Source: Actinomycetota bacterium (lineage in GTDB: Bacteria; Actinomycetota; Humimicrobiia; Humimicrobiales; Humimicrobiaceae). Taken from it: a stretch of DNA of 51,010 nt. The DNA lies in NCBI GenBank assembly GCA_026392215.1, contig JAPLCN010000144.1:1-51010 (forward strand). The letters are read 5' to 3'. This document shows positions 34,088-51,010 of this stretch, piece after piece. A program made the position numbers and the translations under genes. The notes below the pieces were generated by a model. The model did not search any database and had not been told where the DNA came from. It saw only the letters and a program-made list of their open reading frames with translations. Position 1 is the first letter of the stretch. Every line of letters begins with the position of its first letter.

Positions 34088-34440
34088 GGGGGCGTTTTGG
34101 ATTCGACAGGGGTAGATTGAGCTTAGATGGCAAACCGAGTACCAGAGACTCGTAAAACGCTGGAACAAAAATAAACGCAAACAAAAGCGAATTAGCTTTA
34201 GCTGCCTAAACGCAGCTAACGTCCTTTAAGAGTTTCCTTCACTTTTAAAAGGGCGCCGTTAGAAGGATACCTTTTTAAGGAGCGGCCGTTTCCTTAAAAG
34301 AAGGGAAAATTAAAACAGCATAGCAATGAAAGATACTGTTCATGTGATTTTTCAAAGCGAAAATTAGACATGAACTATGTTTGTAGAAGTTTAAGTGCCA
34401 TTGTCTTTGGACGCGGGTTCGACTCCCGCCGCCTCCACCA
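34088..34440 (+). ncRNA. ssrA: tmRNA
   Basis: GGGGGCGTTTTGGATTCGACAGGGGTAGA ... GGGTTCGACTCCCGCCGCCTCCACCA; tag ORF GCAAACAAAAGCGAATTAGCTTTAGCTGCCTAA (34177-34209) = ANKSELALAA*. Confidence 0.96.
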
Positions 34441-39890: not shown

Positions 39891-40041
39891 ATTTATGATG
39901 GGTTTGTTTGGCGTAGTATTTGTATTAATTTTCAATATCCTAAATTATTAAAACCAGAGGAAAATTGACTTAATTTAAAGTGTTATATATTATTTATACT
40001 AAACATATAGGATAACTGATGTTCTTGTGAGGTAATAACAG

Positions 40042-40488
40042 ATGAAAATTTCCACAAAGGGAAGATATGGATTAAGAGCTTTATTAGACCTTGCAACAAA
40101 TTATAATGGTCAATATATAGCATTAAAAACCATCGCAAAAAGACTGGAAGTTTCGGAAGATTATCTTGAGCAGGTATTTTCAATACTTAGAAAGGCCAAT
40201 CTTGTAAAAAGTATTAAAGGTTCTCAAGGTGGATATACCCTAACTAATGATCCTTCAAAAATGACAATTGGTTCTATTCTACGGACGCTGGAAGGTGATT
40301 TATCAGTTGTAAATAATACAATTGATGAAAAAAAATATGACAATGCTGTAGATTATTGCCTTAAAATAAATGTATGGGATAAAATTAACAAAAATGTCAA
40401 TAGGCTTATTGAATCAATGACTTTGGAGGATCTTGTCAATAAATATAAAATTATAAATCATGATAACTCACCTATGTTTTATATTTAA
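40042..40488 (+). CDS. Rrf2 family transcriptional regulator (Fe-S cysteines not conserved)
   Basis: MKISTKGRYGLRALLDLATNYNGQYIALKTIAKRLEVSEDYLEQVFSILRKANLVKSIKGSQGGY. Confidence 0.9.
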   Translation: MKISTKGRYGLRALLDLATNYNGQYIALKTIAKRLEVSEDYLEQVFSILRKANLVKSIKGSQGGYTLTNDPSKMTIGSILRTLEGDLSVVNNTIDEKKYDNAVDYCLKINVWDKINKNVNRLIESMTLEDLVNKYKIINHDNSPMFYI

Positions 40489-40634
40489 TTTACTCAAGAG
40501 ATTTTGGAATAATATAAGTCTATTCTAATAACATTTTTCAATCTAATTAAAGTATAGGATTTAGACAGTTAACCTGTTTTTTTAAATTATTAAAAATAAA
40601 AATTAATATACCTGTAATTGGCAGGTGAATAATA

Positions 40635-41084
40635 ATGAAATTATCTACAAAAGGAACTTATGGAATGAAAGCGATTCTTGATCTTGCATTACATTCTGAT
40701 GGAAATCCTGTTGCAATTAAAAGTATCGCTGAAAGGCAGAATATCTCTGAAAATTATCTAGAACAACTATTTGCAATACTTAGAAAATCAGGGTTACTCC
40801 AAAGCATTAGAGGTGCTCAAGGAGGATATATCCTGGCAAAAAATCCTGGAAAAATAACTGCTGGTTTGATATTAAGAATTTTAGAAGGTTCGCTGGCACC
40901 TGTCCATTGTGTGGAAGAAAATAAACCGGCAGCCTGTAATAGATCCGAAAATTGCATTACAAAGTATGTTTGGGCAGAAATAAGAGACAAAATTTATGAT
41001 GTGGTTGACTCCATAACCTTAGCAGATCTTGTCGAAGAATATAATAAACAAGAATCTGATAAAGACTTCATGTATCATATTTAA
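40635..41084 (+). CDS. Rrf2 family transcriptional regulator, IscR-like Cys cluster
   Basis: MKLSTKGTYGMKAILDLAL; CVEENKPAACNRSENC. Confidence 0.9.
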   Translation: MKLSTKGTYGMKAILDLALHSDGNPVAIKSIAERQNISENYLEQLFAILRKSGLLQSIRGAQGGYILAKNPGKITAGLILRILEGSLAPVHCVEENKPAACNRSENCITKYVWAEIRDKIYDVVDSITLADLVEEYNKQESDKDFMYHI

Positions 41085-41107
41085 TTTTTTTAATTATATA
41101 TACAACT

Positions 41108-41197
41108 ATACCTATAGGAAAAATAATTTTTTTTAAAATAATGTTGACATCCCCTATCTATAATAATAAAATAAAATACAACTAAAATGATAGGTAT
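41108..41197 (+). promoter_or_regulatory. Promoter TTGACA-17-TAAAAT flanked by ATACCTAT / ATAGGTAT dyad
   Basis: TTGACA 41144-41149, TAAAAT 41167-41172; inverted arms at 41108-41115 and 41190-41197. Confidence 0.45.
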
Positions 41198-41293
41198 TAT
41201 TATATATAAAATATAAGTAAATAATATTGAAGCGTAAACTGCAAAAATAATTAGGCTAGGGATATTTATTTTTCAGAAAGGAAAGACCGGATT

Positions 41294-42658
41294 ATGGGTA
41301 TCGCATATAATAACATACTTGAAACTATCGGAAGAACTCCTTTAGTAAAATTAAATAATATTACAAAAAATATAAAATCAAAAATATATGTCAAGGTAGA
41401 ATATTTTAATCCAGGTGGAAGTGTTAAAGACAGAGTTGGCATATCAATGATTGAAGCGGCAGAAAAAGAAGGTCTTTTAAAACTCGGGGGCACTATAATT
41501 GAAGCCACGGCAGGAAATACCGGTGTTGGTATTGCAATAGCTGCTTCTATAAAGAAATACAGGACAATTTTTATACTTCCTGACAAAATGAGTGAAGATA
41601 AGATTGCATTATTAAAAGCTTACGGAGCAGAAGTTATAATAACTCCCACATCTGTTCCGCCGGATTCACCTGAAAGTTATAATGGAGTAGCAGAAAGGCT
41701 TTCTAAAGAAATCAAAGGAGCATTCAGGCCAAATCAATTCATGAATAAATATAATCCTATTGCTCACTATTTAACAACTGGACCTGAAATATGGGAAGAT
41801 ACTGAAGGTAAAATAGATGTTTTTGTAGCAGGGATTGGAACTGGCGGCACTATTTCAGGAATCGGTAAATATTTAAAAGAAAAAAATCCAAATATAATAA
41901 TTATAGGGGCTGATCCGGAAGGTTCAATATTATCCGGAGATTCTCCAAAACCTTTTAAAGTTGAAGGTATTGGTGAAGATTTTATTCCAAAAACATTTAA
42001 TAACCAGATAGTTGATGAAATGATCAGAATAAGCGATAAGGAATCATTTAATACGGCCAGAGAACTGGCAAGGCTGGAAGGTTTACTTGTGGGTGGTTCA
42101 TCTGGCACAGCAGTAGCTGCTGCTATAAAATTTGCCCGCAGACTTGATGTTTCAAAATATATAGTAGCTCTTTTACCTGATACAGGCAGAAATTATATGA
42201 ATAAAATATTTTCAGATAAATGGATGCTGGAAAATGGTTTTTTCGAAAAAAATGTATCAAAAACAAAGAAAATCAAAAATATACTTGAAAGTAAAATAGA
42301 TTTTCCAAAAATTATTTCAATCAGCTCCACAGAACCATTAGTAAATGCAATCAATATAATAAAGAAGTATAGCATTTCGCAACTACCTGTTATTGATGAT
42401 AAAAAACTTGTCGGAAGTTTAAATGAAGCTTCAATCATGAAGATAGTTAAAGATAATTCAAATTATCCAGGTCAAAAAATTGCGTCAGTAATGGGTAAAC
42501 CATTGCCAAAGCTGGATGAAGACCTGGATGTCTTAGAAGCATATAGAATTCTTTTAACAGATGCTTCAGGCATAGTAGTTACAAGAGAAAATATACCGGT
42601 TAGCGTAATAACCAGAACAGATCTAATTAATTTTTGGCTCATAGAAGGTGAAAAATGA
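41294..42658 (+). CDS. Cystathionine beta-synthase (PLP domain plus C-terminal CBS pair)
   Basis: NPGGSVKDRVGISMIEAAE; GTGGTISGIGKYLKEKNP; C-term CBS-like ISQLPVIDDKKLVGSLNEASIM. Confidence 0.9.
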   Translation: MGIAYNNILETIGRTPLVKLNNITKNIKSKIYVKVEYFNPGGSVKDRVGISMIEAAEKEGLLKLGGTIIEATAGNTGVGIAIAASIKKYRTIFILPDKMSEDKIALLKAYGAEVIITPTSVPPDSPESYNGVAERLSKEIKGAFRPNQFMNKYNPIAHYLTTGPEIWEDTEGKIDVFVAGIGTGGTISGIGKYLKEKNPNIIIIGADPEGSILSGDSPKPFKVEGIGEDFIPKTFNNQIVDEMIRISDKESFNTARELARLEGLLVGGSSGTAVAAAIKFARRLDVSKYIVALLPDTGRNYMNKIFSDKWMLENGFFEKNVSKTKKIKNILESKIDFPKIISISSTEPLVNAINIIKKYSISQLPVIDDKKLVGSLNEASIMKIVKDNSNYPGQKIASVMGKPLPKLDEDLDVLEAYRILLTDASGIVVTRENIPVSVITRTDLINFWLIEGEK

Positions 42659-43791
42659 AATTTGAAACAAAAGCTATTCACTTTGGTCAAAAACCAGATT
42701 TTGCGACTGGAGCTGTAACAGTTCCGGTTTATCAAACTTCAACTTATGAACAGGAAGCTATTGGAAAGCATAAAGGTTATGAATATTCAAGAACAGATAA
42801 TCCAACAAGGAAAGTCCTGGAAACCGTTGTTGCTGTGTTGGAAAACGGGGAATATGGCGTTGCTTTTGCATCAGGTCTGGCTGCTGAAACTGCAGTGTTT
42901 CAACTTCTGAAGAATGGCGATCATGTAATAGCAGGAGCAGATATATACGGCGGAACTTACAGGTTGCTGGAAAAAGTATTTAAACCATGGGGGTTAGAGG
43001 TAAGCTTTGTAGATGTTGATGATATTAATAATTTTAAACAGGCTATTAAAAAAAATACCAGACTTATCTGGATTGAAACTCCAACCAATCCTCTTTTAAA
43101 AATAATAAGCATTAAAAAGTTATCAGAAATATCAAAAAACAATAAAATAATTTTTGCTGTTGATAATACGTTTGCAAGTCCTTATTTCCAAAGGCCATTA
43201 AATTTTGGAGCAGATATTGTTGTTCACAGTACAACCAAATATATCTCCGGACACAGTGATATAATTGGCGGAGCTGTAGTAACTTCCAGCAAACAAATCT
43301 ATGAAAATATAAAATTTTACCAAAATGCTGCCGGAGCTGTTCCTGGTCCATGGGATTGCTGGCTAATATTGCGCGGTATAAAAACATTGGCAATAAGAAT
43401 GAAAGAACATGGGAAAAATGCGCTGTATTTAGCGAAACATCTGGAAAAGCATCCTGAAGTTGAAAGAGTATACTACCCGGGTTTGGAAAACAATGATGGT
43501 TATGGAATTGCTAAAGGACAAATGAAAGGTTTCGGCGGTATGGTTAGTTTTGAAATAAAAGGTGGATTTGAAGATACCCAAAAATTTATTTCAAAACTTA
43601 AAATATTTACTTTGGGAGAAAGTCTGGGAGGCGTTGAATCACTTGTGAGCTGCCCTTCAAAAATGACCCATTCCTCAATTCCTTTAAAAGAAAGAGAAAG
43701 GTTAGGGATTAAAGATAATTTAATCAGGCTTTCAATTGGAATTGAAAATAAAAAAGATTTACTTGAGGATTTACTGCAAGCTTTAGAATAA
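42655..43791 (+). CDS. Cystathionine gamma-lyase / trans-sulfuration PLP enzyme
   Basis: YEYSRTDNPTRKVLETVVAVLENGEYGVAFASGLAA; HSTTKYISGHSDIIGG; ATGA overlap. Confidence 0.92.
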   Translation: MKFETKAIHFGQKPDFATGAVTVPVYQTSTYEQEAIGKHKGYEYSRTDNPTRKVLETVVAVLENGEYGVAFASGLAAETAVFQLLKNGDHVIAGADIYGGTYRLLEKVFKPWGLEVSFVDVDDINNFKQAIKKNTRLIWIETPTNPLLKIISIKKLSEISKNNKIIFAVDNTFASPYFQRPLNFGADIVVHSTTKYISGHSDIIGGAVVTSSKQIYENIKFYQNAAGAVPGPWDCWLILRGIKTLAIRMKEHGKNALYLAKHLEKHPEVERVYYPGLENNDGYGIAKGQMKGFGGMVSFEIKGGFEDTQKFISKLKIFTLGESLGGVESLVSCPSKMTHSSIPLKERERLGIKDNLIRLSIGIENKKDLLEDLLQALE

Positions 43792-44055
43792 TAAATATAT
43801 AAATTTATTAAGTAACTTTGTCAGATTATTTCTTGTCATTAAATTCATTCGCAATATAATAATTATAGAATTATACGAATTTTTAAAATATACAGAAAGG
43901 CAACTCCTGAAGTAATAAATAAAGCCTGTAATTTTGAATTTGCTATTTTTGCTCTGGTACAATAAAAAACTAGCTTCCCACTTAAAAAAATCAAAAATAT
44001 CTGTTATAGTTTTAGAATTTATTTTTTTAATAATTACTTACAAATTTATTTCATA

Positions 44056-44880
44056 ATGGATCAGAAAAAAATTTATAATCATGCAAAGATTTCAAAAGAT
44101 TACGCCCGGCGTGATTATCTTGATAAAGCAGAGCAACAGATAATTGAAGAATTAAAGAACGTGCTGCCAAAATTTAATATGCTTGATATGGGCGTGGGCG
44201 GCGGCAGGACTACAGGATATTTTCTGGCTCTTGTTAACAGTTATATAGGCGCTGATTATGCTCCCAATATGATAGCAGAGTGCAAAAAAAAGTTTAAAAA
44301 CAAGAAAGTCTTTGAAGTGCTGGACGTTCGCAACATGTCAAAATTCAGCGACAACATGTTTGATTTCATACTGTTTAGCTATAACGGAATTGACAGTTTT
44401 GGATTAAAAGACAGAGAAACAGCGCTAAAGGAAATAAAGAGAGTTTTAAAAAATGGCGGCTATTACTCTTTTTCATCCCATAACATAAACTGGAAAGGCT
44501 TGTATAATCTTTTTACATTCAGAAATATTTATACAAAATTAGTTAATAAAGCAGATAATGGAAAGAATTTATTATCAAAATTCATTATATTTTTAGAAGC
44601 AGTTTTTATAAACATATGGCTTAATTTCCAAAATAAAAGCTTCAATATTAAATTTCATATTGACCGCTTAAGAAAAGAAGGACAGGGAAATTTAACAGAT
44701 AATTCATTAAATGGAAAAGCAAAAATATTTTATACATCTTACAAATCTCAAATTCTGCAATTAACAAAATCCGGATTTAAAAATATTTCTGCTTATTCAA
44801 TAAACGGCATAAAAACTCGAGATGAAAATGAACTTAACCAGGGCGGATGGATTTATTATTTATGCCAGATCGAAAAATAA
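44056..44880 (+). CDS. SAM-dependent methyltransferase
   Basis: FNMLDMGVGGGRTTGYFLALVNSYIGADYAPNMIAECKKKF. Confidence 0.8.
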   Translation: MDQKKIYNHAKISKDYARRDYLDKAEQQIIEELKNVLPKFNMLDMGVGGGRTTGYFLALVNSYIGADYAPNMIAECKKKFKNKKVFEVLDVRNMSKFSDNMFDFILFSYNGIDSFGLKDRETALKEIKRVLKNGGYYSFSSHNINWKGLYNLFTFRNIYTKLVNKADNGKNLLSKFIIFLEAVFINIWLNFQNKSFNIKFHIDRLRKEGQGNLTDNSLNGKAKIFYTSYKSQILQLTKSGFKNISAYSINGIKTRDENELNQGGWIYYLCQIEK

Positions 44881-45002
44881 ATTTTATTTTGTATTCTGCC
44901 ACAACCGATATTAAATGCCTTTTAATTGATAAATATCGCTATTAAATTATAATTATTAACTAAAGTCGTTATTTTAATAATAAATTTTTAAGAAAGTATA
45001 AA

Positions 45003-45746
45003 TTGGACAACAGACCTATCGGCATTTTTGATTCAGGGCTTGGCGGGCTTACTGTATTAAGAGAAATAATCAAAGAAGTTCCAAATGAAAATATTATTTT
45101 TTTTGGAGATACAGCAAGATTTCCTTACGGTCCCAGGGAACTGGGTGAAGTTAAGATATTTGCACTTAGAATTGCAGATTTTTTGTATGAGCAAAACGTT
45201 AAGCTTCTTGTTATTGCATGCAATACAGCAACCGCTTCCGCACTTTCTGATATCAAGGCAAAATTTAACATACCTGTGATAGGAGTAATCGAACCCGGGG
45301 CAAGAACAGCAGCAGCAGCTACTGTTTCAAAAAGAGTTGGCGTTATTGCTACCAGAGGCACTGTTGGAAGCAAGGCATATGATAATGCAATTAACAAAAT
45401 AGACAGTGAAATAAAACTATTTTCCAATGCCGCGACTTTGCTGGTTGAATATGTTGAGGAAGGGATTTTGGAAGGCAGCATGCTTGACAAGGCAATATGC
45501 GGTTATCTAAAGCCTTTATTTAAGGAAGATATTGACGTCCTGATTTTAGGTTGCACGCACTTTCCTTTAATTGAGGGCAGCATAAAGAACTGCTGCGATG
45601 GCAGTGTTAAGGTTATAAGCTCGGCAATTGAGACTTCAAGGGATGTAAAAAATACCCTTGAAAAATTTAATATTGAAAATGACGGGGAAATAAAGCCCCA
45701 AAGAATATTTTATGAAACTGGGAATACAAGCAAAAATATTTTATGA
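45003..45746 (+). CDS. murI: Glutamate racemase, C-terminus altered by 31-bp tandem duplication
   Basis: RPIGIFDSGLGGLTVLREI; VIACNTATA; LILGCTHFPLIE. Confidence 0.92.
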   Translation: MDNRPIGIFDSGLGGLTVLREIIKEVPNENIIFFGDTARFPYGPRELGEVKIFALRIADFLYEQNVKLLVIACNTATASALSDIKAKFNIPVIGVIEPGARTAAAATVSKRVGVIATRGTVGSKAYDNAINKIDSEIKLFSNAATLLVEYVEEGILEGSMLDKAICGYLKPLFKEDIDVLILGCTHFPLIEGSIKNCCDGSVKVISSAIETSRDVKNTLEKFNIENDGEIKPQRIFYETGNTSKNIL

Positions 45747-45766
45747 AACTGGAAATACAAGCAAAT
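45705..45766 (+). repeat. 31-bp tandem duplication inside murI 3' end
   Basis: ATATTTTATGAAACTGGGAATACAAGCAAAA / ATATTTTATGAAACTGGAAATACAAGCAAAT. Confidence 0.9.
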
Positions 45767-45992
45767 TTTTCAGTGTAAGCAAGATGTTTCTAGGGGAAAA
45801 AATTAAAGAAGTAATAAAAGTTGATTTAAAAATGTAAATTATTATTTTAGAAAGCAAATTTTTTAAAAATACTGATTTTATCAATCGTTTTTTAAATATT
45901 TACACAACAGCTTCAATTGGCAGAATGCAGATAAATAATATTTATTAATTCTAATTTTTGTTTTTATAGTTTTAGCGAAAGGCAGTTTAAAT

Positions 45993-46718
45993 ATGAGCAC
46001 AAGAATTGATGGCAGATCAAATGATGAATTAAGGCAGGTCAAAGTAACAAGAAACTACATATCCCATGCTGAAGGTTCCGCCTTCATAGAAGTTGGAAAG
46101 ACCAGAGTTATATGCACGGCTACTGTAGAAGAAAAAGTCCCACCGTTCCAAAGAGGCAAGGGTATCGGATGGGTTACTGCAGAATATGACATGATTCCAA
46201 GATCAGCGCAGGTGAGAATAATCAGGCCTCAAACAACGGGCAAAATCAAAGGAAGGACTCATGAGATTCAGAGGTTGATAGGGAGGTCGCTGCGTGGTGT
46301 TGTTGATTTCCAAAAACTTGGCGAGCGGACTATCTGGATAGACTGTGATGTTATTGAGGCAGACGGAGGCACAAGATGCGCTTCTATTACCGGCGGCTAT
46401 ATTGCTTTATTTGACTGCTGCAGATATCTGGTTGAACAAAAAATAATTACAGAAATGCCTGTGAGCGATTTTCTGGCAGCAATTAGTGTAGGCATAGTCA
46501 ATGGAGAGATCATGGCTGATTTATGTTTTGCTGAAGACAGCACTGCAGAAGTTGACATGAATGTTGTAATGAATTCAAAAGGCAATCTGATTGAAGTTCA
46601 GTCTACTGCTGAAAATAAAGCCTTCTCAAGAGAAGATTTTAACAAGCTGCTTGATCTTTCAATGGTTTCCATAGAAAAACTTTTCTTAATTCAAAAAAAA
46701 GTATTGCTTGAACAATAG
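45993..46718 (+). CDS. rph: Ribonuclease PH
   Basis: [53 protein letters not shown]. Confidence 0.95.
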
Positions 46719-46839
46719 TATTGGAAGATATCTGCCGGTTATCTTGCATGGATAACCTTTAGGTTCTACTGAATGTTTTTACAATTGTGACAAATAATTA
46801 ATAAAATTTTTATAATTTAAGAGTACTGTTTAAAATAAC

Positions 46840-47457
46840 ATGGAAAATGAAACTTCAATAATAATTGCTACAAAAAATAAAGGAAAAGTTAAGGAAATAT
46901 GGCATTTTTTAAAGGATTTAAACATAAATCTTTTGTCTCTTAATGATTTTGAAAATTTATCCGAAATCATTGAAGATGGCAAAAATTTTAAAGAAAATTC
47001 CATAAAAAAAGCAAAAATAATTGCCGAAACTTTTCAGAAATTAACTCTTGCTGATGATTCAGGGCTGGAAGTTGACTTTCTTAATGGCAATCCTGGTGTT
47101 TATTCATCAAGATACAGTGGTGAAAATGCAACAGATAAATCCAACAGAGACAAGCTCTTATCAGGACTTGCAGAGATAAAGGATTTAAATGAAAGAACGG
47201 CAAGGTTTGTATGCCACCTTGTTTTATGGGATCCGCAAAGGGGACTTTTATTCGAAACTGACGGGTTTTGTGAAGGGTGGATAGGTTTTGAAGAAACCGG
47301 AAGCGGCGGATTCGGATATGACTGCATCTTTATTCCAAAAGGATTTAATAAAACTATGGCGCAGCTTAGCAAGGATGAAAAGAATGAAATCAGCCACAGG
47401 GGCAAAGCTTTAAAAGATTTTACTGGTTTTATTAACAAAAATAAGTTTCTTTTTTAG
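46840..47457 (+). CDS. rdgB: XTP/dITP diphosphatase
   Basis: IIIATKNKGKVKEI; LADDSGLEVDFLNGNPGVYSSRYSGENATD; GSGGFGYDCIFIP. Confidence 0.93.
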   Translation: MENETSIIIATKNKGKVKEIWHFLKDLNINLLSLNDFENLSEIIEDGKNFKENSIKKAKIIAETFQKLTLADDSGLEVDFLNGNPGVYSSRYSGENATDKSNRDKLLSGLAEIKDLNERTARFVCHLVLWDPQRGLLFETDGFCEGWIGFEETGSGGFGYDCIFIPKGFNKTMAQLSKDEKNEISHRGKALKDFTGFINKNKFLF

Positions 47458-47482
47458 CTTGTTTGAATTAAAATAATAAATT

Positions 47483-47680
47483 AGCCGAAAGCCCCTTATT
47501 TCAATGATGGGGATGAAGGCTTTTTATAAAAACGTCTTGAAACGGGCGTTATACTATCGTTAATGGATTGAAATGGAATCTTTGATAGTGAAAATCTTAG
47601 AGAAACCAATTGGTCGTTATAAGTTTTGGCTTATATCGAAAGCTGGTCAGTATCTAAGAACCAGCCGACTTTAGTCGTGT
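47483..47680 (+). ncRNA. Candidate structured RNA / IS605-like end region with a chain of hairpins
   Basis: Stems AGCC..CCCC/GGGG..GGCT, AACG/CGTT, ACTATC/GATAGT, TATAAG/CTTATA, GCTGGT/ACCAGC, CGACT-TT-AGTCG in under 200 bp. Confidence 0.4.
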
Positions 47681-47707
47681 AAGAATTTCAGTTCTTGTCT
47701 GTAATAT

Positions 47708-47787
47708 CGGGGTGTAGCGCAGCCTTGGTTTAGCGCACCTGCTTTGGGAGCAGGGGGTCGGAGGTTCAAATCCTCTCACCCCGACCA
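47708..47787 (+). tRNA. tRNA-Pro (TGG)
   Basis: CGGGGTG...CACCCCGACCA cloverleaf, anticodon loop TTTGGGA. Confidence 0.93.
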
Positions 47788-48014
47788 GTACTTTGAAAGT
47801 AAAAGTTAGCTTTGATTGGAGTTTAAATACGCCGGTGGCATATTTAAACAAAAGGATTTGAATGGACGGACTGAAGGCGGCAGCCGAAGGAGTCCGCGGC
47901 TCTGCAGCGAGCGATAGCGAGACGAAAGACCAAATCCTCTCACCCCGACCAGTACTTTGAAAGTAAAAGTTAGCTTTGGTTGGAGTTTAAATACGCCTGT
48001 GGCATATTTAAACA
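47767..48014 (+). repeat. tRNA-3'-end-linked tandem element at tRNA-Pro (164-bp period)
   Basis: 84 bp 47767-47850 repeated at 47931-48014 with two mismatches; palindromic core 47853-47938 between. Confidence 0.9.
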
Positions 48015-48117
48015 CTAAGCCCTTTAGTTAATTCCCCTTTTTAAGTTTTTTATATTATTTGTATCAATAATAATTACCATAAAATATACCATAAAAAAAT
48101 ATTGATATTTAGCAATA

Positions 48118-48363
48118 GTGACAATACTGCCGATTACATCATTAAAACCTGGAAGAAAAATATATCCCAATGAAGTTTTAATTGAAAAAGATGAGAATAA
48201 AAATACCGGTCTTTCAATTGATTCCATTATTATGGCTCACCAGATTAGAACTGTTTTTAGAACTGTTTCAAAAAATAGACTAAAAAGAAATATCGGAAGT
48301 ATTGATGGTATGGAAATCATGGAAGAAGTCAATGAAGCTTTAAGGATTCATTTGAATTTATAA
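48118..48363 (+). pseudogene. 5'-truncated MazF/PemK-type toxin remnant
   Basis: VTILPITSLKPGRKIYPNEVLIEKDENKNTGLSIDSIIMAHQIRTV...IGSIDGMEIMEEVNEALRIHLNL; in-frame stop at 48103 and no typical N-terminus. Confidence 0.6.
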
Positions 48364-48599
48364 GAATTTCTGTTTTATGTAATTTATATGATTTTTTTAC
48401 CTCCCAAATTATTTTAATAGCAGGACTTGAAGTTTCCAGGTTTTTTGTATCCAAGCTATTAAAGAATTGATTGGCTATTGATTATTTTTAATTTTTATAT
48501 AAAATTTATTATGCAAATTAGATGGATAACTGTTAAAATAACTTGCTACTCTGTATGCAAGCTTTAAAGGGCTATTATTTGCAGGCATTTTGTATTCAA

Positions 48600-48676
48600 G
48601 CGGGAATAGCTCAGCTGGCTAGAGCGAAAGCCTTCCAAGCTTTAGGTCGCGGGTTCGAATCCCGTTTCCCGCTCCA
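48600..48676 (+). tRNA. tRNA-Gly (TCC)
   Basis: GCGGGAA...TTCCCGCTCCA; anticodon loop CTTCCAA. Confidence 0.93.
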
Positions 48677-48756
48677 TTTTTTTAAAATGATTCATTTTTT
48701 ATGCTGATTATTCTGGTTTATTAAAAAAATTATTAAAATTTCAGGAGAAAGATAAA

Positions 48757-49953
48757 ATGAGTAGAAAAATAAGATTATTAATAATTTTTACTGTTATTTT
48801 ATGTTTGTCTTTTACTTTTATTCCTAACAATATATATGCAGCTACAAAAACCCAGGCGACTGATTTTGTAACAAGATTTTATACACATATTCTGGAAAGA
48901 AATCCTGATGCTGCAGGCCTTGATAGCCATGTAAAACAAATATTAAAAAAACAGATTACCGGGGCTCAACTTGCATATAATTTTGTGTTCAGTGCAGAGT
49001 TTTCTGCAAAAAATAAGAGTAATGAAGATTATTTAAAGATTCTTTTCAGGGCTTGCTTTAACAGGGAAGCTGATTCTGCCTCTTATGGCAACTGGCTGAA
49101 TTTATTAAACAAGGGCTATTCCCGCCAGTATGTGCTGGCAGGTTTTGTAAATGCGGATGAATTTAAAAACCTTTGCGGCAGCTATGGCGTAAAGGCAGGA
49201 AGCCTTGACGGGGGATCGATTCCTCAAATAACCGCAACTCAAATACCTATAATAGAATTGCACGGGATTGAAAATAGTCCAATGGGAAGATATGAAATTA
49301 GTGCCGGAGCTTTTGATTATATGTGCGGCACTTTAAAAAATATGGGATATGAAACAATCACACTCATTGATTTATATAATCATTTTGCAAAAGGCACAAA
49401 ACTGCCTGCTAAACCGGTTATTATTACAGCTGATGATGGTTATCAAAGCATGTATACTACTGCATTCCCAATCCTTAAAAAATATAAATACAAAATGACT
49501 GTTTTTTTAATTACAAGCTTTATTGGTGATAATGAAAAAACAAGAAGATTAAATGATTTTGACAGCGGTATGGAAAATATACCGCAAAGGGCGATGCTGA
49601 CATGGCCGGAAATCGGACAGATGAGTAAGTATGGCTTGGAATTTCAATCTCATTCATGGGGCCACACTATAATGAGCAATATTCCTATAGACAGGGCAAA
49701 ATTTGAACTTATTCAGTCAAAGCATGATATAGAACTGCATACTGGGAAGCCTGTTATATTTATTGCATGGCCTCACGGGGCAAGTTCAGATGAAGTAATT
49801 TCATTATTGCCACAAGTCGGTTATGTCGGGGCATTAAATGCATCTGGCGGCGTTCAAAGTCTGACGTCAATTGATTTAACCAGATTAAACAGAGTTGAGA
49901 TTGTTTCAGGGATTCCTCCCCAGGCTTATGCAGAAGTTTTAAATCTGCACTAA
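48757..49953 (+). CDS. Secreted DUF4214-like plus polysaccharide deacetylase (NodB-like) protein
   Basis: Signal peptide; DFVTRFYTHILERNPDAAGLDSHV; PVIITADDGYQSMYTTAFPILKKYKYKMTVFLI; FQSHSWGH. Confidence 0.85.
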   Translation: MSRKIRLLIIFTVILCLSFTFIPNNIYAATKTQATDFVTRFYTHILERNPDAAGLDSHVKQILKKQITGAQLAYNFVFSAEFSAKNKSNEDYLKILFRACFNREADSASYGNWLNLLNKGYSRQYVLAGFVNADEFKNLCGSYGVKAGSLDGGSIPQITATQIPIIELHGIENSPMGRYEISAGAFDYMCGTLKNMGYETITLIDLYNHFAKGTKLPAKPVIITADDGYQSMYTTAFPILKKYKYKMTVFLITSFIGDNEKTRRLNDFDSGMENIPQRAMLTWPEIGQMSKYGLEFQSHSWGHTIMSNIPIDRAKFELIQSKHDIELHTGKPVIFIAWPHGASSDEVISLLPQVGYVGALNASGGVQSLTSIDLTRLNRVEIVSGIPPQAYAEVLNLH

Positions 49954-50129
49954 ATTAAATGATATCGTTTTTTTAAATTCTTTTTCTAAATTCTTATTGA
50001 CTTGCATATTAATATTTTTTAAAGTATTATTTCGTTGCAATTAATTCAGAATAGTTGTCGGATGCTGTTAATTTTTTTATACACTGATTTTGTTATAATG
50101 AGTTAATTTGAATAGTATTAAATTAATAT

Positions 50130-50206
50130 GCGCTTGTAGCTCAGCTGGATAGAGCTACGGACTTCTAATCCGTAGGTCGGGGGTTCGAATCCCTCCAAGC
50201 GCACCA
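50130..50206 (+). tRNA. tRNA-Arg (TCT)
   Basis: GCGCTTG...CAAGCGCACCA; anticodon loop CTTCTAA. Confidence 0.93.
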
Positions 50207-50527
50207 TTGAACTTTGATAATTTATTTGCAACTTTAGATAAGAGTTTAAATCTGCCGGTGGCTGATTTAAACAAAGGGATTCGAATGGACGGAGCGAAGG
50301 CGACAGCCGAGTGAGTCCGCGGCTACGTAAGCGAGCGATAGCGAGACGAAAGACCGAATCCCTCCAAGCGCACCATGATACTTTGGTTTTAAGTTTTAAA
50401 ACTTTGAATGGACGGAGCGAAGGCGACAGCCGAGTGAGTCCGCGGCTCTGCAGCGAGCGATAGCGAGACGAAAGACCGAATCCCTCCAAGCGCACCAAGA
50501 TACTTTGGTTTTAAGTTTCAAAACTTT
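50186..50527 (+). repeat. tRNA-3'-end-linked element array at tRNA-Arg(TCT): two cores, three tRNA 3' ends
   Basis: CGAATCCCTCCAAGCGCACCA at 50186-50206, 50355-50375 and 50477-50497; cores ~50276-50362 and ~50406-50484. Confidence 0.9.
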
Positions 50528-50565
50528 TTGCTAAGCCGTTAGAATACTAATGGCAAAGGAATTTT

Positions 50566-50642
50566 GGTGAGAATAGCTCAGTTGGTAGAGCGCAGGTCTG
50601 TGGCACCTGATGTCGCGGGTTCGAGCCCCGTTTCTCACCCCA
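50566..50642 (+). tRNA. tRNA-His (GTG)
   Basis: GGTGAGAA...TTCTCACCCCA; anticodon loop CTGTGGC. Confidence 0.92.
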
Positions 50643-50739
50643 TTTTTTTATTATTATCTTGTTTTTAATGATAAGGATTTAAAATATTAAATCTTATTTA
50701 ACAAATAAATGTTTACTCTTTGTAGTAGAAAAACAACTT

Positions 50740-50816
50740 GCGCCTGTAGCTCAGCTGGATAGAGCGACGGACTTCGAATCCGAAGGCCGGGGGTTCGAAT
50801 CCCTCCAGGCGTGCCA
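50740..50816 (+). tRNA. tRNA-Arg (TCG)
   Basis: GCGCCTG...CAGGCGTGCCA; anticodon loop CTTCGAA. Confidence 0.93.
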
Positions 50817-51010
50817 AACACTTTAAAGTTTAAAGAATAACTTTTGATTAGAGTTTAAATATGCCTGTGGCTTATTTAAACAAAGGGATTCGAAAGGACG
50901 GAGTGAAGCGAAGCGTAATGAGTCCGCGTCTCTGCAGCGAACGATAGTGAGACGAAAGAACGAATCCCTCCAGGCGTGCCAAACACTTTAAAGTTTAAAG
51001 AATAACTTTT
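50796..51010 (+). repeat. tRNA-3'-end-linked tandem element at tRNA-Arg(TCG) (165-bp period, cut by window end)
   Basis: CGAATCCCTCCAGGCGTGCCA repeated at 50961-50981; following 29 bp 50817-50845 repeated identically at 50982-51010. Confidence 0.9.

Follow-up and report, generated by a model that had tools for sequence, protein, structure and literature searches.

The modules described here are short structured repeats attached to the 3′ ends of tRNA genes in a 51,010-nt stretch of DNA (hereafter, the window) from an Actinomycetota bacterium of the family Humimicrobiaceae (GenBank assembly GCA_026392215.1, contig JAPLCN010000144.1). Their closest described counterparts are the RtT repeats of Escherichia coli. 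The RNA product of the E. coli tyrT repeat was described in 1991 (as cited in PMC11623569). In strain K-12, the end of the tyrV gene recurs downstream in three exact 19-nt copies at a 178-nt period, and the annotated end of the repeat RNA, RttR, is the CCA of a tRNA copy. The tyrV unit also contains a 10-nt reverse complement (GGGGAAGGAT) of the tRNA segment ATCCTTCCCC, a length reached in only 6 of 2000 shuffled units, and the Rfam model for RtT (RF00391) already draws the outer helix that this antisense arm forms with the tRNA-end copy. RtT units are also present behind an E. coli tRNA-Pro gene (proK; arm GAGGAT, tRNA ATCCTC), where complete units vary in number between strains (L130, L160-L164) and the last unit is truncated before a sequence resembling repetitive extragenic palindromic (REP) elements in the six strains examined. 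Two other systems are similar in part. Integrative elements with tRNA attachment (att) sites of the attB type, including those at the T-loop sublocation, use the tRNA 3′ end and duplicate it on insertion, and integron attC sites are structured tandem repeats that end in a short inverted pair. To our knowledge, however, an antisense arm is no part of the tRNA att sites of tyrosine recombinases, and attC sites have neither tRNA anchoring nor locus-matched arms.

Three tRNAs of the window bear modules, with periods of 164 bp (Pro-TGG), 169 and 122 bp (Arg-TCT) and 165 bp (Arg-TCG), and every module terminates with a 21/21 copy of nt 56-76 of the local tRNA. These coordinates and periods agree with a first-pass annotation of the sequence, which had reported that the last ~21 nt of three tRNA genes are duplicated downstream and that tRNA-Gly and tRNA-His lack the module, as they do. 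Each unit starts directly 3′ of the CCA of a tRNA or transfer-messenger RNA (tmRNA) and comprises, in this order, an AT-rich spacer, a terminator-like hairpin, an antisense arm, an RNA core and the copy of the local tRNA nt 56-76; tandem arrays are frequent. The annotation had listed a spacer and a hairpin; both, the hairpin being terminator-like, belong to the unit. It overlooked the 8-nt antisense arm 5′ of the core, and its estimate of ~85 bp for the core was too long (about 67-71 nt in the window copies). Only spurious open reading frames (ORFs) overlap the modules, which bears out its view that no credible ORF lies inside.

The modules thus share with RtT the position directly 3′ of a tRNA, the tRNA-end copy and the outer helix between arm and copy. 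The resemblance extends to the whole series of tRNA, spacer, hairpin, antisense arm, GA-rich structured core and 3′-end copy (the last 19 nt in E. coli), to the tandem repetition with a truncated last unit and to the locus matching of the arms, which holds for both E. coli tRNAs. In contrast, pairing of the arm in E. coli involves nt 59-68 (Tyr) or 59-64 (Pro) rather than 56-63, two E. coli tRNA types were seen to host units compared to at least 22 types plus tmRNA in Humimicrobiaceae, and RttR overlaps the tpr ORF whereas no such ORF was seen in the Humimicrobiaceae units. Covariance model R1 had no significant match in the E. coli tyrT or proK loci, and RF00391 had none at E ≤ 1 in window positions 40000-51010. 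We therefore class the modules with RtT by layout and not within RF00391. An Rfam scan of the modules returned only tRNAs and weak reverse-strand plastid matches, with no family that fits them, and we did not find a description of such a family in the open-access literature. The first-pass description of the repeats as new-looking is accurate for Rfam but not for their architecture, which E. coli shares; by layout, the Humimicrobiaceae modules are a new variant of the RtT kind with a much wider distribution. Our favored interpretation, which we hold to be rather more probable than its competitors together, is that they form a family of structured RNAs of the RtT type, anchored at tRNAs, whose members spread between tRNA 3′ ends inside a genome.

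The antisense arm carries much of this interpretation. It consists of 8 nt located 61-73 nt beyond the tRNA, just 5′ of the core, and is the reverse complement of nt 56-63 of the local tRNA. The match was exact in 47 of the 63 first units with a tRNA upstream; permuting the tRNAs among loci 10,000 times produced a mean of 8.9 exact matches and a maximum of 20. Among the lowest arm scores, that of L028 was a script artifact (8/8 by separate comparison) and that of L087 is uncertain. The variable tRNA positions 57, 59 and 63 were tracked by the arm at 97, 97 and 78%, respectively, compared to 53, 56 and 50% after shuffling, and the tracking ended at position 64. An invariant AA follows the arm and is complementary to T54-T55, which are likewise invariant. 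Arm and tRNA also change jointly across genomes within one tRNA type, as in Trp (tRNA/arm CGAATCCC/GGGATTCG and CGAGTCCC/GGGACTCG) and Leu-TAG (CGACTCCC/GGGAGTCG and CAAGTCCC/GGGACTTG), and the arms at Asp, Pro-CGG and Ser-GGA likewise change when the tRNA changes. At the other end, 48 of the 63 units terminate in a 21/21 match to the end of their local tRNA. The arm provides a precise and testable rule for what the RNA pairs with, and makes it possible to ask if the modules hitch-hike selfishly, regulate tRNA maturation or do both.

Alignment of 48 distinct cores (alignment A1) supported a conserved fold of the sense-strand RNA with four helices (P1 to P4) and one loop-to-junction pair (columns 50-86), closed by P1, the helix between the arm and the downstream tRNA-end copy. 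The fold paired 97.8% of the cells. Changes on both sides were found in 13 of the 21 pairs, compared to 7.4 after shuffling (none of 500 shuffles reached 13), and sliding the fold by one column collapsed the pairing to 23 to 45%. G-U wobbles are present on the tRNA-sense strand (columns 20-40 and 21-39), and genome G005 has swapped a hairpin that normally carries tandem G-A mismatches (GCGARC..GYGAGAC) for a perfect stem (GCAAATCC-AGCA-GGATTTGAC). Together, the sense-strand G-U pairs, the covariation and the G005 stem point to selection on the RNA (or on a sense single strand). One of the proposals of the first-pass annotation, a structured RNA that trails the tRNA and has a tRNA-like 3′ terminus, is consistent with this covarying fold and, by analogy, with the end of RttR.

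A core search of the whole assembly (2.15 Mb in 207 contigs, of which the window is C72) retrieved 14 matches, one of them a 17-nt chance match inside an ORF. The other 13 are real copies, all just 3′ of a tRNA, so that the genome has at least this number. Copies follow Pro-TGG, Arg-TCT (2), Arg-TCG (2), Arg-ACG, Pro-CGG, Ser-GCT and Tyr (2), decayed copies follow Pro-GGG, Asn and Leu-TAG, and additional remnants were detected at Asp, Ser-GGA and Ser-CGA. As the assembly has 45 tRNA matches, the majority of its tRNAs are without the element. Within the family, model R1 identified elements in 24 of 35 genomes; five other genomes of the class had none, and 297 genomes of the phylum added just one weak match outside the family (E 0.005). 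An exact degenerate pattern matched 46 contigs of GTDB species genomes; the named sources are Candidatus Humimicrobium oleiphilum and Candidatus Hydromicrobium americanum and the rest are Actinomycetota or bacterial metagenome-assembled genomes (MAGs). We read the element-bearing family as Humimicrobiaceae. The core was not found in the viral contigs, phages or plasmids searched.

Across the family, the hosts include at least 22 tRNA types (about half of all types) and tmRNA. In the collected loci, 73 of the 87 strong matches had a tRNA within 700 nt upstream; the other 14 comprised nine at contig edges, two after tmRNA, one with a group II intron between it and its tRNA, and two isolated remnants. 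The tmRNA of G001 is followed by three identical 165-bp units (L169 398-808, contig C60) with an arm, GGGAGTCG, that matches CGACTCCC, and the tmRNAs of two other genomes by one element each, with an arm that matches in L072 and does so at 6/8 positions in L060. The window tmRNA (34088-34440) has no element after it. The position 3′ of tRNA genes and the locus-matched ends that the annotation had noticed in the window recur across the family.

The cores behave differently from the arms and copies. We compared 54 first units, those within one genome all being located at different tRNAs, and obtained a mean core identity of 0.862 within genomes, above the permuted maximum of 0.829. Identity within the same tRNA type was 0.764, not above chance. 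The Arg-TCT and Pro-TGG units of G004, for example, have identical cores, yet their arms (GGGATTCG and AGGATTTG) each fit their own tRNA, and the Arg-ACG and Ser-GGA units of the same genome are about 95% identical in core and spacer while arm and copy differ as the tRNAs do. Because cores are common to different tRNAs of one genome and arm and copy are local, as the annotation had also noted for the core and the duplicated end, the core moves or is homogenized between loci. Occupied and empty sites can be compared at the Trp locus. The site is empty in G000, where the CCA is followed by TATATTTAAATTTTAAAGAACAGG with no spacer or hairpin, and occupied in G002, where two units are followed by the same flank (TATATTTAAATTAAAAAGAACAGG) right after the last copy. 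The comparison shows a clean insertion after the CCA that comprises the spacer and hairpin as well.

From these patterns we infer a mode of movement and a role for the RNA. By analogy with RttR, the unit would be co-transcribed with its host tRNA, and 3′-end maturation at both CCA ends would free an RNA of ~165 nt or shorter whose 3′ end is tRNA-like. New tRNAs could be reached if copying or a template switch took place at the T-loop/T-stem and CCA sequences, which are nearly identical; switching at this T-arm/CCA microhomology would recreate the local 3′-end copy automatically. The arm would afterwards be kept or re-fitted through selection for pairing, and tandem copies may arise from unequal exchange between the repeated tRNA ends. 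As the tRNA stays intact, the simplest reading is a tolerated hitch-hiking element, for which a cellular benefit is only putative.

Several observations weigh against modules that spread in this way. Unit 2 at Arg-TCT has no matched arm and yet its copy is complete, and the arm of the L060 tmRNA copy has two mismatches. The shuffle statistics ignore the kinship of the genomes, the evidence from occupied and empty sites comes mainly from one clean locus (Trp), and homogenization of the cores by gene conversion, without insertion, would produce the same identity pattern at established loci. Without a covariance-model link in either direction, the Humimicrobiaceae modules and RtT may also be convergent. 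Finally, a predicted alternative to P1, in which the tRNA itself binds the arm and is completed by the distal copy, was preferred in 44 of 46 loci by nearest-neighbor energies only. We treat this alternative pairing as no more than a lead toward a switch or an intron-like reading because the model ignores tRNA tertiary structure and co-transcriptional folding.

An alternative that we consider unlikely, though it deserves attention, is a non-autonomous mobile element served by a dedicated enzyme in trans, with the arm and the following AA (against nt 54-63) guiding it to T-loops and the 21-bp repeat representing a target-site duplication. The arm fits its target even in otherwise decayed units (Asn, Pro-GGG and Leu-TAG), the complementarity reaches T54-T55, which are present only in the tRNA itself, the boundary at the CCA is clean and site occupancy is patchy. 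However, no clear partner enzyme emerged among the three classes tested. Y1 transposases were detected in 13 of the 35 genomes with no pattern relative to element presence, which led us to reject a single-strand element of the IS200/REP type, and tyrosine integrases are encoded in all 35 genomes, with or without elements, and never inside a unit. Reverse transcriptases were confined to element-bearing genomes (11 of 24 vs. 0 of 11, a post hoc comparison uncorrected for phylogeny), but the two for which the ends were examined (in G001 and G030) are parts of group II introns located behind ordinary terminator-like hairpins. In one genome, a group II intron also interrupts the arm of the element at tRNA-Pro-CGG (L066 3867-6010; also L175), with the hairpin and AGGATT before its 5′ end and the remaining TG, the core and the tRNA copy after its 3′ end. 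Group IIC introns insert after intrinsic terminators (PMC4424553) and, thus, the association of reverse transcriptases with the elements is probably indirect. Insertion of the introns after hairpins supports, in turn, the terminator-like nature of the element hairpin.

The first-pass annotation had itself suggested a tiny non-autonomous element that uses tRNA 3′ ends as attachment or target sites. This agrees with the location of nearly all copies at tRNA or tmRNA genes, the occupied and empty sites with their clean CCA boundary and the shared cores, but a mobilizing enzyme was not found among the Y1 transposases, reverse transcriptases and tyrosine integrases tested. A classical integrase att site does not account for the locus-matched acceptor-stem copy and the antisense arm. 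The units (~165 bp) differ further from tRNA-attB integrative elements in having neither integrase nor cargo and an acceptor-stem copy that is always local. Integron attC and IS200-type models were rejected, because they explain hairpins but not the locus-matched copy.

We hold similarly low expectations for a non-mobile functional RNA acting in cis, in which the units would be ancestral tRNA trailers that serve in maturation, or as a switch of the arm between T-arm and copy, and have cores homogenized by gene conversion. The strong conservation of the structure and the two alternative pairings, available at all complete loci tested, speak for such a role, as do the spacers, whose nearest relative was the same tRNA of another genome in 15 of 54 cases and another tRNA of the same genome in 7 of 54. 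A maintained trailer is, however, difficult to reconcile with the lack of units in 11 of the 35 family genomes and at the majority of tRNAs in any genome, with the many decayed copies, and with an empty Trp site that lacks the spacer and hairpin too. Improbable by a wider margin is a unit that behaves like an intron RNA of the tRNA T-loop. The arm would then serve as an internal guide for nt 54-63 or for the downstream copy. The core, as a small RNA that is catalytic or assisted by protein, would excise RNA of unit length, with nt 55 joined to the distal nt 56, and could reinsert at other tRNAs through RNA. The window modules matched no intron family in the Rfam scan (group I or group II core), and a group I/II identity was rejected; the one group II intron found in a unit had been inserted into it. 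Hammerhead-type and other known small ribozymes were also rejected (motif absent, no Rfam match). An assembly artifact or ordinary tandem duplication of tRNA ends can be practically dismissed, for although arrays lie at several contig ends, like repeats in short-read MAGs, the identical structure in 24 genomes already refutes it and tandem duplication creates neither a locus-matched antisense arm nor a core common to loci.

The E. coli tyrT repeat has so far been a one-locus curiosity, and the same layout is now found in a distant phylum. The many occupied, empty and decayed sites of Humimicrobiaceae make the origin of the layout testable by comparison. Furthermore, tRNA 3′ ends can bear a class of tiny repeat that integrase att sites do not explain.

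All window arrays are encoded on the forward strand. The first follows tRNA-Pro(TGG) (47708-47787, predicted with ARAGORN), whose 3′-terminal 21 nt (47767-47787) recur downstream. After it, an AT-rich spacer and a terminator-like hairpin (47788-47852; stem 47821-47849, GTTTAAATACGCCGGTGGCATATTTAAAC) precede the antisense arm AGGATTTG (47853-47860), an exact reverse complement of the local nt 56-63 (CAAATCCT), and the structured core (47861-47930; R1 match 47853-47938, E 3.7e-24). The 21/21 copy (47931-47951) closes the unit, and a trailing partial unit (47952-48014; repeat family D7) repeats the spacer and hairpin before unrelated flank. The second array belongs to tRNA-Arg(TCT) (50130-50206, ARAGORN; end segment 50186-50206). 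Its unit 1 has a spacer and hairpin (50207-50275; stem about 50243-50272), the arm GGGATTCG (50276-50283, exact reverse complement of the local nt 56-63), a core with a variant loop, ACGTA (50284-50354; R1 match 50276-50362, E 1.2e-20), and a 21/21 copy (50355-50375). In unit 2, a short spacer (50376-50405) leads to the core (50406-50476, located by the core search and R1) and the second 21/21 copy (50477-50497); the hairpin and matched arm are missing, hence its period of 122 bp. The third array, at tRNA-Arg(TCG) (50740-50816, ARAGORN; end segment 50796-50816), comprises a spacer and hairpin (50817-50884; stem about 50853-50881), the same arm GGGATTCG (50885-50892), again exact for its local tRNA nt 56-63, a core (50893-50960; R1 match 50885-50968, E 5.6e-24) and a 21/21 copy (50961-50981). 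A further unit begins at 50982 and is cut by the contig end (51010); the array goes on at contig C42 (locus L010, reverse strand), a continuation that the annotation had missed while reporting the period correctly.

Other short repeats were noted in the window and at tRNA ends. A 31-bp tandem repeat in the window (45699-45765; two copies, 94% match) spans the 3′ end of an ORF (45003-45746). In G000, isolated T-arm-to-CCA fragments of tRNA-Gln lie about 60-150 nt past tRNA-Leu-TAA and tRNA-Glu-CTC (L107 and L104), with no core, and resemble scars that another element left at attachment sites. The same genome has a tRNA-Gln-CTG whose last 15 nt are repeated immediately after it (CTCCCTCCCCAGCCA; L103, contig C34), also with no core, and a ~40-bp tandem duplication (TGGTGGCCAGCCAAAGTAAACATTTATATTCTTTAATTA) downstream of tRNA-Val-CAC (L101, contig C169).

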